Shown piece by piece: positions 1,627 to 7,079 of a stretch of 7,079 nt of DNA. A program made the position numbers and the translations under genes. The stretch comes from a candidate division WOR-3 bacterium (lineage in GTDB: Bacteria > SDB-A), in NCBI GenBank assembly GCA_016926475.1, contig JAFGON010000070.1, positions 1-7,079 of the forward strand, written 5' to 3'. The notes beneath the pieces are model-generated. The model worked only from the letters and a program-made list of their open reading frames with translations, did no database searches and was not told where the DNA came from. Positions within the stretch are counted from its first letter, which is position 1, and each line of letters starts with the position of its first letter.

Positions 1627-3879
1627 TCACCCAACATCAACCTCAACTGGTTCGCGGACGCCGATGCCGGTGAGGATGCACTGACCGGTCTCGTAAACCG
1701 GAAGCTGATTGGAAATTTGTTTTGAAATAGTTTCGATAATATCATCGAGAGCCTTAATGTCAGCGTTATTTATCAGCCTGAATATCGCCGATGTGTTGCA
1801 CTGAGCTATGACGGATTTGTCAATATTCGCCGGTCTCTGGGTCACTGCAACCAGACCCGTGTTGAACTTTCTGCCCTCCGATGTTACGTTTAGAAGTGAT
1901 TTAGCGCTTACACAACCTCTCCCGGCACTTTGGGGAGCGTAATTGTGAGCTTCCTCGACAACGAGCAAACTTTTAAACGCTCCGTCTGTTTTCTTGGCTT
2001 CGCTGAATACTGAATCGCATACACTTGAAACTACCCGCCATCTGTCTTCAATCGAATTCATGTTTTTAAGGTTGAGAATGTAAATCTTCGACTCCTTGAT
2101 GTTTTCTATAAACTGCTCGGAAATAAATCCGACTTTTCCTGATTCAAGGATTTTTTGGATTTTTTCAAGTTTTTCTCCGGCGAAAGCTTTTTCTTCAGTT
2201 TTGCTGAATACCTTTGAAATTTCAGCAAATCTCAATTTCTTAATGTGTTTTAGAAGTTCTTCTTTGAATTTTGGATCTTGTTCAATTTTTAAAAATATGG
2301 ATTCTAATGTATCTTTTTTCTTTTGCTTCCCTTCTGTAGTTTTTCCATCTGCATATTCTGATAACACAGCAAAATAAGCTTTAAAATCCTTTTCAAAAAA
2401 ATTTTTAAACGCATACTTTTCGTCAAAAGCTTCATTATCAAGTTCTTCAAGTTTCTGGTTGATATATTGAGAATCAATCTCTTTCTCCTCTTCCCTCTTT
2501 TCTTTTATTATTTCTATAAACCTATTCCTTTTTTTCTCTTCGCTTATCTCAGCAGTTGAGGCTTCAAAGGCGTTCAAGAGTATCTTTTTCTCGTATTCGG
2601 TAAATGCGGAATTGAACAATAAATCAAAATCGCTTTCCTCGGTCAAAATCTTTTTCTCCAAGATTTTTAAGATCATCTTTTCGTCTAAAACTGTAATATC
2701 CTTCGAATCAATTCCTGAATACAATTCACCGGCGTCTTTATTCCCGGGGATATACTCGCCGTGGGTGTCGAATATGACTATTCTGCCTTTTTGATTTTTG
2801 AGCCATGGGAAAATGCCCGAAATGAATTTCTTTGTGAAATACGATTTGCCGCTTCCGGTGGTTCCGAAGACCGCCATGTGCTGGGTCAGGATTTTGTTGT
2901 AATCAATGAAAACCTCCACATCCTTGTTGGAGGTCAATTTCCCCACGGGATAAAGATCTTTTTCTTCAAAGCCGAGAAGCCTGTGGAGAATTTCCGGTCT
3001 CGCGGTTGTGACCACCGAACACGCCGGAACGGCAACCCTGTTTCTCTCCAGTTTCTCTTCCTTGCCGAAATTCACTATTTCCTTGCAAATTTCTATTGTT
3101 CCGCTTCTTAACTGTGTAAAACCCTTTTCGTTTATCAGGGCGGTCATCATTGCAAACCGGACGGCTGGATTTTTCTTGTTGAGGACTTCATACATCTCAG
3201 CGACCTGCGGGTTCAAACGGTTCTCCGGTGTGAAATCCGGCAGAAATTCGCTGTCGTGAGCCACAGGTTTTACAATCTTGCCAAGCCATCTCCTCTTCTC
3301 TCCATCGTAGTCCTCTGACTCGATTTCGACGTATTTCCCGTATTCTATCTCTGTGACACAGACGAAATCGGCTGATCTGTTGTCCGCTTCGCCCAAAACA
3401 AAACCTAAAACGTTCTTGTCCAGAGAAAACGATTTTTCCCATAATGACTCGAATTCCTGTGCCAACTCCTTCACTTTTTCAGGATCGGTGATTTCGAGAC
3501 CCATTTCGTCGTTGTTTCCGGGTTTATTTTCGGTGCCGTATCCGCCGCCTGTAACGTTGAAAGAACCTACTGTCGCGTATGAATCGTCAACTACGTTGAA
3601 CTTCGCGTGGACGGTTGAAAGATACCTGACCTCGGCTTTGACCGAATCGGCTAATTTCAAAAAATTTTCAATGTCGGTAATCTCAAGGTCTTTTTTCTTG
3701 TCCAACCTTACTATAAACCTGATATCTGGAACTTTTCCCTTACTGTCCTTGAAACCTTCCAGAAGTTGCTCGAGCGTGCCGCTTCTGACCCAACCAGAAC
3801 AAATCCAGATTCTCTTTTTTGCCCCCGAAAAAGCCTTTTTGACCCTGTCGAGATTGCCCCTGTTCGTGAGAAGATCCAT
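1627..3879 (-). CDS. PLD nuclease-like domain fused to HerA-type ATPase (DUF87)
   Basis: In this 750-residue protein, residues 1-150 form one phospholipase D-type half. The HKD-like motif is His91-x-Lys93-x4-Asp98, followed by GSFN (105-108) and a downstream Glu125, as in PLD-family nucleases that work as dimers. Residues about 165-215 look like the beta-rich HAS barrel that precedes HerA ATPases. The P-loop GTTGSGKS is at 339-346, Walker B-like LLVVEEAH at 638-645, and VTQRP at 679-683 fits the sensor region. Between P-loop and Walker B lies a long Lys/Glu-rich helical stretch (about 400-590). HerA ATPases are hexameric DNA translocases. Known partners include NurA in archaeal end resection and SIR2 or DUF4297 in anti-phage systems; here the nuclease-like part is in the same chain. 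The ATG has AGGAGG (3884-3889) 4 bases upstream. It follows the four-helix gene by 58 bases, probably in one operon. A defence or DNA-processing role is inferred. Confidence 0.88.
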   Translation of the reverse strand: MDLLTNRGNLDRVKKAFSGAKKRIWICSGWVRSGTLEQLLEGFKDSKGKVPDIRFIVRLDKKKDLEITDIENFLKLADSVKAEVRYLSTVHAKFNVVDDSYATVGSFNVTGGGYGTENKPGNNDEMGLEITDPEKVKELAQEFESLWEKSFSLDKNVLGFVLGEADNRSADFVCVTEIEYGKYVEIESEDYDGEKRRWLGKIVKPVAHDSEFLPDFTPENRLNPQVAEMYEVLNKKNPAVRFAMMTALINEKGFTQLRSGTIEICKEIVNFGKEEKLERNRVAVPACSVVTTARPEILHRLLGFEEKDLYPVGKLTSNKDVEVFIDYNKILTQHMAVFGTTGSGKSYFTKKFISGIFPWLKNQKGRIVIFDTHGEYIPGNKDAGELYSGIDSKDITVLDEKMILKILEKKILTEESDFDLLFNSAFTEYEKKILLNAFEASTAEISEEKKRNRFIEIIKEKREEEKEIDSQYINQKLEELDNEAFDEKYAFKNFFEKDFKAYFAVLSEYADGKTTEGKQKKKDTLESIFLKIEQDPKFKEELLKHIKKLRFAEISKVFSKTEEKAFAGEKLEKIQKILESGKVGFISEQFIENIKESKIYILNLKNMNSIEDRWRVVSSVCDSVFSEAKKTDGAFKSLLVVEEAHNYAPQSAGRGCVSAKSLLNVTSEGRKFNTGLVAVTQRPANIDKSVIAQCNTSAIFRLINNADIKALDDIIETISKQISNQLPVYETGQCILTGIGVREPVEVDVG

Positions 3880-3883
3880 TTTT

Positions 3884-3889
3884 CCTCCT
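3884..3889 (-). promoter_or_regulatory. Ribosome binding site of the PLD-HerA gene
   Basis: A perfect AGGAGG lies 4 bases before the ATG at 3877-3879. It confirms the start and argues for strong independent initiation after the four-helix gene. Confidence 0.75.
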
Positions 3890-3937
3890 GAAGAATTATT
3901 GATTTAAAATGTTTTTCCGATTCAACAAAACACTCTT

Positions 3938-4510
3938 TCATTGACCGTCTCTTCTCTGCTTTCTCTTCTTGTAAAGCTTCTCAGTGAAACCGCCTTCATC
4001 GAGAAATCTTTTTTCTAGCTGTCTCAGTTGTTTATCGAGAAGGTAATTTGTCTGATGAATGAGGCAGATTATTGTGTTGGCTGAAATTTCAGGTTCAGAG
4101 AATTCAATATAGGACTTATAAGTCAAATAAGACCTATTCATTGAATAAGAAAGCTTTCTGATTTCCTGAGACCTGGGATCATCTTTCCCCCAAAGTTTCA
4201 AATTTCTTTGTCTTAGATAATCCTCATAGTCCAGCAATAGTTCTTCAAGACTTGCTCTTGCAACACCGACTAATTTTAACTCGGTTTTTTTAGAAGTTCC
4301 TGAAGCCATGCTTCCTTCTGCTATGTTTTGTTTTCCGCTTCTTGATGCCTGAACCATTTGATCATGTGTTCTTGATCTTTTTTCAATGAATCTATCGCAA
4401 AATTTTATCGTCGCATCATAGACGATTTCCGACATCATATAAGACACAAGGTTTCTGTATCCGCCGTGAGATTCGATTAGCTTATCTTTGTCATGGTGTT
4501 TATCAGCCAC
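3938..4510 (-). CDS. Four-helix-bundle (23S rRNA IVP/S23-like) protein with suffix domain
   Basis: This 190-residue protein belongs to the four-helix-bundle group first seen as proteins encoded in 23S rRNA intervening sequences. The hallmark is QASRSGKQNIAEGS (54-67), preceded by a helix carrying VYDATIKFCDRFI (30-42). The C-terminal part has the pattern of the known four-helix-bundle suffix domain: AN (144-145), HQTNYLLDKQL (152-162), then GG (173-174) and a basic tail rich in Lys and Arg. The family is small, helical and cytoplasmic. Its biochemical role is unclear; the related Avd protein of diversity-generating retroelements forms a pentamer that binds nucleic acid. The start is GTG (4508-4510), with GGAG (4517-4520) 6 bases upstream and an in-frame stop just before it. 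Its head overlaps a leader ORF by 8 bases. The PLD-HerA gene follows 58 bases later, suggesting a shared task. Confidence 0.85.
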   Translation of the reverse strand: MADKHHDKDKLIESHGGYRNLVSYMMSEIVYDATIKFCDRFIEKRSRTHDQMVQASRSGKQNIAEGSMASGTSKKTELKLVGVARASLEELLLDYEDYLRQRNLKLWGKDDPRSQEIRKLSYSMNRSYLTYKSYIEFSEPEISANTIICLIHQTNYLLDKQLRQLEKRFLDEGGFTEKLYKKRKQRRDGQ

Positions 4511-4620: not shown

Positions 4621-5472
4621 CTAATCTTTCTTGTATTGAAAATAACTCATACTTGCGCATTTCGGATAATAATAGACCTCAAAATTGGAGAAAAAGTCTG
4701 AGCCGATTATTCCTGAGATTCCATTGGTAAAAAAATGTTTTTCTATCTCGTTGGGCAAGACGCCGAAACTAGCCATGAATTTCTTTTCTCCCAATTTGAC
4801 AGCCATCTCTCTGAAAGGTGTTGTAAATTTATTAAAAGGATAACCCGCAAAATACTCCACTTCTTCTCCCTTCATGGGTTTTTCTGACAATTCACCTTTA
4901 GGCAGGTAAGAAAACCTAGACGCAGTGTTGATGAGCATCTGGAATTTTTTGTTTTTAACCCTGAATTCAGCAGTATATGGATTGGCTGCAAAAAAATCGC
5001 CTGTAGATTTAAGATATGCATAGGGGCTAAAAACAGAGCCGTCTGAAACTGCACGGCTGAAAGCGGCTTTAGAATTTTTATAATTAAAAACAGTTCTGTA
5101 ATCTTCAAAAAAATCATTTCCCGCTATCACAGTTATCTCGGTCTCTAAAAATTCCGAGGCGTTTTTTATAAGTTGAAGATTTTCTTCAGAATCTTCTGTA
5201 GAATAATCAAAATCTTCAATGAAATCAAAATCGCCTTCTCTGCTTATGGATTTTTTCAAACCAGTGTTCAAAAGAATAATTTCTTCGTAATCGGGAGGGC
5301 AGTATTCGTCAAGAGTTTTTGCCTTTTCCTTGTTATTAATCGCTTCAAACCACATATCCCTTGCTTTTTTCTCCCTTTCAAACTTTACGTTCGGATCTTC
5401 ATACAGAAGAATGGGAATATTTTTTACCAATTTAATATCCATCTCGTATATTGACGTTTCTTCAAAATACAT
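4621..5472 (-). CDS. Duplicated retropepsin-like protein lacking catalytic Asp (probable pseudo-protease)
   Basis: A 283-residue protein without signal peptide or membrane segment. The C-terminal half looks like a retropepsin/pepsin-type lobe. MLINTASRFSYLP (179-191) sits where such proteases have the Asp-Thr-Gly active-site turn, and GIIGSDFFSNFEVYYYPK (254-271) matches the family's C-terminal Gly-x-Asp-Phe-Leu strand. The first half repeats both pieces: ILLNTGLKKS (66-75) and IAGNDFFEDYRTVFNYK (116-132). So it may be a two-lobed protein with Asn in place of Asp in both lobes (Asn69, Asn182), hence probably non-catalytic. An acidic linker (79-97) lies within the first half. The ATG (5470-5472) follows AAGGAGG (5478-5484) by 5 bases, so the longer GTG reading from 5553 is not used. 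It follows the VWA metallopeptidase by 46 bases, which suggests a scaffold, inhibitor or substrate partner. The fold call is by eye and moderately sure. Confidence 0.55.
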   Translation of the reverse strand: MYFEETSIYEMDIKLVKNIPILLYEDPNVKFEREKKARDMWFEAINNKEKAKTLDEYCPPDYEEIILLNTGLKKSISREGDFDFIEDFDYSTEDSEENLQLIKNASEFLETEITVIAGNDFFEDYRTVFNYKNSKAAFSRAVSDGSVFSPYAYLKSTGDFFAANPYTAEFRVKNKKFQMLINTASRFSYLPKGELSEKPMKGEEVEYFAGYPFNKFTTPFREMAVKLGEKKFMASFGVLPNEIEKHFFTNGISGIIGSDFFSNFEVYYYPKCASMSYFQYKKD

Positions 5473-5477
5473 TGTCT

Positions 5478-5484
5478 CCTCCTT
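5478..5484 (-). promoter_or_regulatory. Ribosome binding site deciding the start of the retropepsin-like gene
   Basis: AAGGAGG lies 5 bases before the ATG at 5470-5472. The alternative GTG at 5551-5553 lies inside the preceding gene and has no such site. Confidence 0.75.
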
Positions 5485-5518
5485 CTGAATTGTTTGAACC
5501 TTTGCACAATGTTTTTCA

Positions 5519-6892
5519 TTAATCATCAAGGTAAAATACTCCTTTAATATCACCGATATCGTTTATTTTTTTCTTGATAACATGCCTATCGTAAGATTTT
5601 GACGGCAAAATTACATACATCTCCGCTAAAGTCTTTTTATCAGTTTTGCTGAAACAGCCGTCGGTTATGATCAGTGCTTTTTTGAATTTACACGAATTTA
5701 TGTGCTCGATTACTGGGTTTATGTCCGTCCCGCCGGTTATGGCATTTCCCTCTTTCACGTCCTGAAGGGTTATCTTCTTAAGTTCGGATGAAAAAACAAA
5801 ATATGGACCGGGAAAAAGATCCGAGATTTTTCTCAAGAGAATGTAGATCAATTCCTTGTAGGATTCCATGGAACCTGATTGGTCAATATAAACAGGCGCA
5901 AACTCGTCGCTTTTAACTCTCGCGGGAATTTTGTTCTGATAGAACAGGGTGTTCACACCGCAATTTATAAGGGAAAGCTGTTTTCTTGTAAAATTAGGTA
6001 TGACACCTGTCGATTCGACAAAATCAGTTTTATACTTTACGCTTTTAAACATATTTTCACAGACAACTTTTTCCATTAGCTTTTTCAGAAATTCGGCTTT
6101 TCGAATATTCCCGCCTTCTGTAAAATTAATTTTTTTCTTTTCGATTGAAGATGTGTTCTTGAAGTAAAAACTGTTTCTTATGTGATCGATAAAGCCGGAA
6201 ACAGCTGTTTTGGCGGCACTGTTTTGATTTAACACTTCGTTGACGAGCGAGATGTAAGTAAAATTTTCCCTTTTACTTATAAATTTTTTCAAAACACTTT
6301 CCAACTGAGGAACCGACATTCCCGGCTTTAGGTAATTGTCAAACCAAAGGGATATGAGGATATTTTTTTTAGCCGGAGAGAGGTTGATAATTTTTTTGAA
6401 ATCCTTTTCCACGCTTTTTCTGCTTTTGGATGGCGCTGTGAGGAGAAACATAAGGTCGTTTTCAGTGAAAAATCGCTTTATTATCATTTTTTTGTAGTAA
6501 CTGCCGTAACAGTTGTCAAGAACCGGTATTCTTTTTTTCCTGTTAAGATTGTACATCAGAGAATTGCAGTTTATGTCAGCGCAAAAATTCGTGAATTGGG
6601 GGCTGATTTTAACGGCATACTTGAAGTGCTCGAAAAAAATGTGCGATAATTCATGAATCAGCACCCAAAGAAGGTCATACCTTCCGGTCATTTTATTCTT
6701 CATGAAATTTTCGTTTATTCTGATAACGAATCCGCCGTCTCCGGCATGTTGGACGCATGCGGTTTTAACTGTTTCGGAATTCTTTTCGACGATTACGTCT
6801 TTTACCGTGCTTTTGTAAATGTCGAAAAGCGGTTTTAAAAAGCTCTTTTCCTCAAAAATCATTTCCGTGAATTTTTCTTTGACGTTTTCCAT
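5519..6892 (-). CDS. Putative zinc metallopeptidase with VWA-like domain (DUF2201/COG3864-like)
   Basis: A 457-residue soluble protein. The N-terminal part carries a zinc-peptidase motif HELSH (80-84) inside LLWVLIHELSHIFFEHF, and downstream FCADINCNSLM (103-113) supplies Asp106 as a possible third ligand. The C-terminal part is VWA-like. DQSGS (337-341) is the MIDAS metal site, TGGTD (387-390 region) fits its third loop, and ALIITDG (406-412) is the strand with the second acid. This order matches the DUF2201-type metallopeptidase/VWA family, usually encoded beside a MoxR-type AAA+ ATPase and thought to act in protein or metal-centre remodelling. The region between the domains (about 130-290) is helical and basic. 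I chose ATG at 6890-6892 because the upstream frame stops one base earlier, which suggests translational coupling; only AGG serves as a weak binding site. A TTG at 6959-6961 would extend it by 23 residues with no support. Confidence 0.85.
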   Translation of the reverse strand: MENVKEKFTEMIFEEKSFLKPLFDIYKSTVKDVIVEKNSETVKTACVQHAGDGGFVIRINENFMKNKMTGRYDLLWVLIHELSHIFFEHFKYAVKISPQFTNFCADINCNSLMYNLNRKKRIPVLDNCYGSYYKKMIIKRFFTENDLMFLLTAPSKSRKSVEKDFKKIINLSPAKKNILISLWFDNYLKPGMSVPQLESVLKKFISKRENFTYISLVNEVLNQNSAAKTAVSGFIDHIRNSFYFKNTSSIEKKKINFTEGGNIRKAEFLKKLMEKVVCENMFKSVKYKTDFVESTGVIPNFTRKQLSLINCGVNTLFYQNKIPARVKSDEFAPVYIDQSGSMESYKELIYILLRKISDLFPGPYFVFSSELKKITLQDVKEGNAITGGTDINPVIEHINSCKFKKALIITDGCFSKTDKKTLAEMYVILPSKSYDRHVIKKKINDIGDIKGVFYLDD

Positions 6893-6893
6893 G

Positions 6894-7079
6894 TTAACCT
6901 GCTTTGCAAAGCGCTTTCCCGTCAATAATTCCGAGTGAAACCGTTTTTTCAAGGTCTGCAAATCTGTCCAGCGCGGGGTACAAGGGGTTGTAAATCCCGC
7001 AATCTATTCTGCTGTAAATATTCTTGATCATATCAATATCGGTTATGACTTCCGGAGCTGTATCGTAAAATAATATATC
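6894..7079 (-). CDS. C-terminal fragment of unknown upstream gene
   Basis: An open frame enters from the right edge and ends at TAA (6894-6896), giving 61 residues that finish DGKALCKAG. The stop is one base before the ATG of the metallopeptidase/VWA gene, so the two are almost certainly co-transcribed and translationally coupled. The tail is mixed helical, with the stretch CGIYNPLYPALDRFADLE near the middle, and has no motif I recognise. By family habit the neighbour of a DUF2201-type protein is often a MoxR-type AAA+ ATPase, but nothing in these 61 residues shows that, so the identity stays open. Confidence 0.65.
   Translation of the reverse strand, partial: DILFYDTAPEVITDIDMIKNIYSRIDCGIYNPLYPALDRFADLEKTVSLGIIDGKALCKAG

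Follow-up and report, generated by a model that had tools for sequence, protein, structure and literature searches.

In the closest described systems, HerA usually acts with an effector supplied by a second gene. The nuclease of the DNA-end resection complex HerA-NurA (archaea, Deinococcus) is the separate NurA, and the anti-phage complexes DUF4297-HerA and SIR2-HerA (Nezha), each encoded by two genes, likewise place an effector at the HAS barrel of a HerA ring. Docking on the HAS barrels of HerA is described for NurA as well as DUF4297 (PMC9960219; PMC11291478). PLD nucleases are coupled to ATPase motors in SauUSI, NgoAVII, CglI and PbeA. SauUSI is a single chain with an N-terminal PLD domain, and its active site is formed by dimerisation of the PLD nuclease domains (PMC7913695). 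The motor of SauUSI-type enzymes is SF2 helicase-like, and SauUSI additionally has a target-recognition domain. A nuclease and a HerA/FtsK ATPase are joined in one polypeptide in HerA/FtsK capture systems such as DndH. The preliminary description of the locus studied here assumed that HerA effectors reside in separate genes, which was an overstatement, since DndH joins an REase and HerA/FtsK in one chain (PMC10853773).

The locus lies on a contig that is a complete 7,079-base piece of a 2.15-Mb assembly in 106 contigs; we refer to this whole stretch as the window. As the preliminary description had stated, a single ORF on the minus strand (1627-3879) encodes one chain of 750 aa that combines a PLD half with a HerA ATPase, an architecture hereafter called PLD-HerA. 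The ORF is exact, and profile searches identify PLDc_2 (PF13091) at residues 15-147 (E=1.2e-14), HerA DUF87 (PF01935) at residues 311-496 (E=4.7e-25) and the PADLOC HerA at residues 306-747 (E=5.5e-40). A PLD-type nuclease domain with a single HKD motif occupies residues 1-155 (3415..3879, minus strand), as judged from PF13091, the motif and the model. The HerA part, residues 154-750 (1630..3420, minus strand), is recognised by PF01935, the PADLOC HerA, NCBIfam HerA and the model, and comprises a HAS barrel, a RecA-like ATPase and an inserted helix bundle. All of the residues named earlier are present at their exact positions: His91, Lys93, Asp98 and Asn108, the P-loop GTTGSGKS (residues 339-346; 2842..2865, minus strand) and the Walker B motif LLVVEEAH (residues 638-645; 1945..1968, minus strand), the latter two read directly from the sequence. 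The complete PLD motif reads H91-x-K93-x4-D98 ... G105-S106-x-N108 ... N123-x-E125. The insertion in the ATPase is enlarged (approximately residues 385-590; 2110..2727, minus strand; alignment and model), helical in the model, encoded by a low-GC stretch and, in the alignment, common to the 750-aa protein and one relative (L005). With the canonical double-strand-break-repair HerA profiles the protein scores about 104 bits (NF040937) and 103 bits (NF040819), far under the equivalog cut-offs of 800 and 970 bits, and so falls outside the canonical class.

Structure prediction agrees with these assignments. The full-length AlphaFold2 model, built from a 12-row alignment, has a pLDDT of 79. Its residues 154-750 match the HerA subunit of 9x1m, the HerA-NurA complex of Thermococcus (Z 32.2, 379 residues, 3.8 A) and Sulfolobus HerA 4d2i (Z 31.5), placing the protein, on predicted fold and profile matches, in the HerA branch of HerA/FtsK translocases. 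Modelled alone, the PLD domain reaches a pLDDT of 86 and resembles Nuc 1byr (Z 17.0), NucT 6ehi (Z 16.9) and the corresponding domain of SauUSI 7clg (Z 16.8). The HxKx4D...GSxN motif together with the predicted PLD fold identifies this part as a putative one-HKD, Nuc-type nuclease. Because each chain has one HKD motif, the PLD domains are expected to pair, as in SauUSI. Sequence, structure prediction and conservation jointly support a single-chain nuclease-ATPase.

Compared with the known systems, PLD-HerA is like HerA-NurA in having a HAS barrel, a RecA core, a helix bundle and a nuclease at the HAS-barrel face, but here the nuclease is a PLD domain within the chain. The same predicted arrangement of ring and effector is shared with DUF4297-HerA and SIR2-HerA, whereas these have a different effector fold and PLD-HerA is one gene, whose main clade shows no sign of acting in defence. 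Coupling of a PLD nuclease to an ATPase motor, with a predicted dependence on DNA, recalls the SauUSI group; however, the motor is a HerA/FtsK-type ATPase and no target-recognition domain is recognisable. DndH also unites its nuclease and ATPase, but with an REase instead of PLD, in a much larger protein that has other subunits. We found no description of the PLD-HerA architecture in the open literature searched (subscription papers lay outside its scope), and as far as that search reaches, the family is a new form of HerA.

The search for the family started from a relative on the Aquifex aeolicus plasmid ece1, which aligned over residues 1 to 749 of the 750-aa protein. With this alignment twelve loci were identified, of which eleven are genuine relatives over long stretches, and whole-phylum searches followed from these. 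PLD-HerA, or a fragment of it at a contig edge, is present in 77 of the 136 sampled Aquificota genomes and, at E<=1e-50, in 4/147 genomes of the WOR-3 group, with long matches in three; because the scan of genome contigs used narrow patterns, groups outside Aquificota and WOR-3 are under-sampled. The phylum-level group of the source genome comprises four available genomes; the gene is single-copy in the source and was absent from the three others searched. In all 69 aligned homologs (68 distinct, L007 and L052 being the same locus), H91, K93, D98, N108, K345, E642, E643, E668, R670, Q681 and R682 are invariant, as are G339 and G344 of the P-loop. In a tree built from the HerA part only, all 30 sampled PLD-HerA rows lie beyond one branch (99/97), opposite 12 other HerA proteins, as expected if the fusion had a single origin; judging from these sequences, the family probably arose once. 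A separate origin of the fusion in the 750-aa protein is unsupported, given that all PLD-HerA share this branch. The 750-aa protein and L005 form a divergent pair, sister to all remaining PLD-HerA. We also considered a phage or viral origin and rejected it, as neither phages nor three viral-contig scans, made with narrow patterns, yielded any relative. The ece1 copy itself (L004 8001-9957) is interrupted by stops and frame changes, and only two of its fragments are annotated as genes.

Genomic neighbourhoods differ between the clades of the family. In the largest clade (42 rows) PLD-HerA occupies conserved housekeeping contexts, with rpmB before and obg after it, or coaE before and dtd after it. 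At nine loci of the rpmB/obg group, NurA is encoded 1.1-2.8 kb downstream, its identity resting on PF09376 (E=2e-22) in the one locus of the group that was scanned. Genome-wide coordinates add two genomes (G098 and G095), bringing to 11 the Hydrogenothermaceae-type genomes with NurA about 1-3 kb from PLD-HerA. Canonical HerA is encoded elsewhere in these genomes (e.g. G091, G088), and since the NurA synteny is confined to one clade it may represent a single event. The mobile clade (24 rows) has varied contexts with mostly unrelated, non-defence neighbours. In two Aquificota genomes (G137 and G141) PLD-HerA comes directly after type III-A CRISPR genes, csm4-csm5-cas6 or csm3-csm4-csm5, and the frames overlap or abut (L056 2077-6979; L065 2168-6962). 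Type III-like methyltransferases adjoin it at two mobile-clade loci. In two WOR-3 members of this clade, RecJ is encoded 33-38 bp upstream, in the same orientation (L011 5812-9388; L101 3405-6886). In Desulfurobacteriaceae, a 181-aa gene that is weakly HSDR_N/McrBC-like is found 3' of PLD-HerA (L007 5857-6402; L009 11955-12503), and at L008 (11984-18276) an island of trypsin-like, HerA-like and AAA genes replaces it. For the gene that follows PLD-HerA in L005, neither Pfam nor PADLOC gave a match.

The distribution of HerA and NurA offers a further view. Canonical HerA is present in 60/136 and NurA in 109/136 Aquificota genomes. Among the 76 without canonical HerA, NurA is encoded in 39/46 with PLD-HerA vs 13/30 without it (Fisher p=3e-4, a test that ignores phylogeny and incomplete assemblies). 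Most Aquificota members of the family have NurA in the same genome, sometimes nearby, which is another likeness to HerA-NurA. In genome G013, where the second contig matches the ece1 copy, the contig of chromosome size encodes PLD-HerA as well as NurA; canonical HerA was not found at the threshold used. It is tempting to speculate, although we hold this to be rather less probable than not, that PLD-HerA is the working HerA of many Aquificota without the canonical protein, that it pairs with NurA as a two-nuclease end-processing machine, and that a mobile branch was recruited into type III CRISPR operons. The genome of the 750-aa protein does not present a canonical HerA-NurA pair: NurA was undetected there, in its three relatives and in the L005 genome, although a highly divergent one might have escaped the search. 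The reading as an end-resection enzyme is therefore at its weakest for the 750-aa copy.

What might such a protein do? With the PLD domain fused just N-terminal to the HAS barrel, the most straightforward mechanism would be for the ring to feed the duplex DNA it pumps to its own nuclease. We lean, with modest confidence, towards PLD-HerA being a hexameric dsDNA translocase with its own PLD nuclease that processes chromosomal DNA ends and is sometimes recruited for defence. The PLD nuclease would be fused at the N-terminal HAS-barrel face, where the separate nucleases NurA and DUF4297 dock. Six subunits would assemble into a HerA ring, the PLD halves would come together in pairs where the DNA exits, each pair forming an active site with two HKD motifs, and pumping powered by ATP would deliver duplex DNA to these sites, resulting in ATP-dependent end-processing or shredding. 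The ancestral protein was probably a chromosomal DNA-processing enzyme of Aquificota, working by itself or, in genomes that lack canonical HerA, together with NurA. CRISPR, methyltransferase and plasmid loci would then have acquired members of the mobile clade, and the 750-aa copy would be a divergent accessory member without a detectable NurA.

For the main clade, a housekeeping role in DNA processing fits best, and for the mobile clade a role in defence is plausible. Whether the 750-aa copy itself shares with the mobile clade a putative role as an accessory nuclease in defence, that is, as a single-protein ATP-dependent restriction-like enzyme comparable to SauUSI or DUF4297-HerA, is more doubtful, and we consider it unlikely on balance. 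Its absence from the three other genomes searched in the source phylum would fit such a role, as would the relatives in type III-A CRISPR operons and beside type III-like methyltransferases, the broken copy on ece1, whose wider region has AbiEii and PIN genes, and the existence of PLD-helicase restriction enzymes (PMC7913695). However, the sister of the 750-aa/L005 pair is the entire rest of the family, mostly in housekeeping synteny; even the mobile clade has mostly non-defence neighbours; and neither a target-recognition domain, a restriction-type methyltransferase nor a sensor is seen in the window. All genes of the window were read and scanned, and no SIR2- or DUF4297-type effector gene is among them; a PADLOC scan found no defence genes there besides the HerA and PLD matches of PLD-HerA itself. 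Of the two functions suggested in the preliminary description, DNA processing holds for most of the family and defence only for the contexts of some mobile members; the accessory setting it expected is contradicted by the largest clade and borne out at some mobile-clade defence loci. A conjugation-like DNA-transfer or segregation pump, whose PLD domain nicks or resolves DNA, might be suspected from weak TrwB and FtsK Pfam matches, from structural matches to TrwB and VirB4 (Z about 18-24) and from the broken plasmid copy, but we judge it improbable: the structural matches to HerA are stronger (Z up to 32), and no relaxase, secretion or membrane components adjoin PLD-HerA in the window.

The other proposal of the preliminary description was a two-gene module of PLD-HerA with the gene just upstream. 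That gene (3938..4510, minus strand) encodes a 190-aa four-helix-bundle suffix protein, correctly recognised as S23/IVP-like: it matches TIGR04258 (4helix_suffix; E=2.9e-22, 78.3 bits vs a cut-off of 40) and TIGR02436 (E=5.3e-7, 29.8 bits vs 24), and being above both cut-offs it belongs to the S23/TIGR02436 four-helix-bundle class. The four-helix, PLD and HerA profile matches are all far beyond chance. Both ORFs are on the same strand with 58 nt between them, and each gene is single-copy in the source genome with neither in the three relatives, as one would expect if the two proteins worked together. When the neighbours of homologs were tabulated, however, a four-helix gene was found at 0/71 other PLD-HerA loci (some flanks being short at contig ends), and the four-helix protein's single plasmid relative, found in Prevotella, occurs on its own. 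Joint action is thus highly improbable; we rejected the four-helix protein as a partner, judge it to be outside the system and regard its position as incidental. Homologs of the fusion thus do not neighbour the four-helix gene, and the largest clade sits in housekeeping contexts; by and large, both are what the preliminary description had itself listed as counting against the module.

In the order of minus-strand transcription, the window encodes a 480-aa VWA/metallopeptidase-like protein, a 310-aa protein, the four-helix protein and PLD-HerA, followed by a 267-aa methyltransferase-like gene of the leucine carboxyl methyltransferase family. A second copy of the VWA gene and of most of the 310-aa gene (4860-7079), 88.6% identical, is present in the same genome. 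This copy lies at the end of another contig (L115 8531-10751), preceded by MoxR-like AAA and 278-aa genes, which suggests a duplicated MoxR-VWA module. No known RNA families were found in the window. A G+C-rich segment after the methyltransferase gene (176-312) was considered as an attC-like integron site and dismissed, its strand folding no better than shuffles (z +1.74).

If our reading is correct, the nuclease that HerA usually receives from a second gene is built into PLD-HerA, which would make it a one-protein system for studying how pumping and cutting are coupled. It would also offer an explanation, open to testing, of how Aquificota without canonical HerA process DNA ends, and a single enzyme family would extend across genome maintenance and CRISPR-linked contexts.
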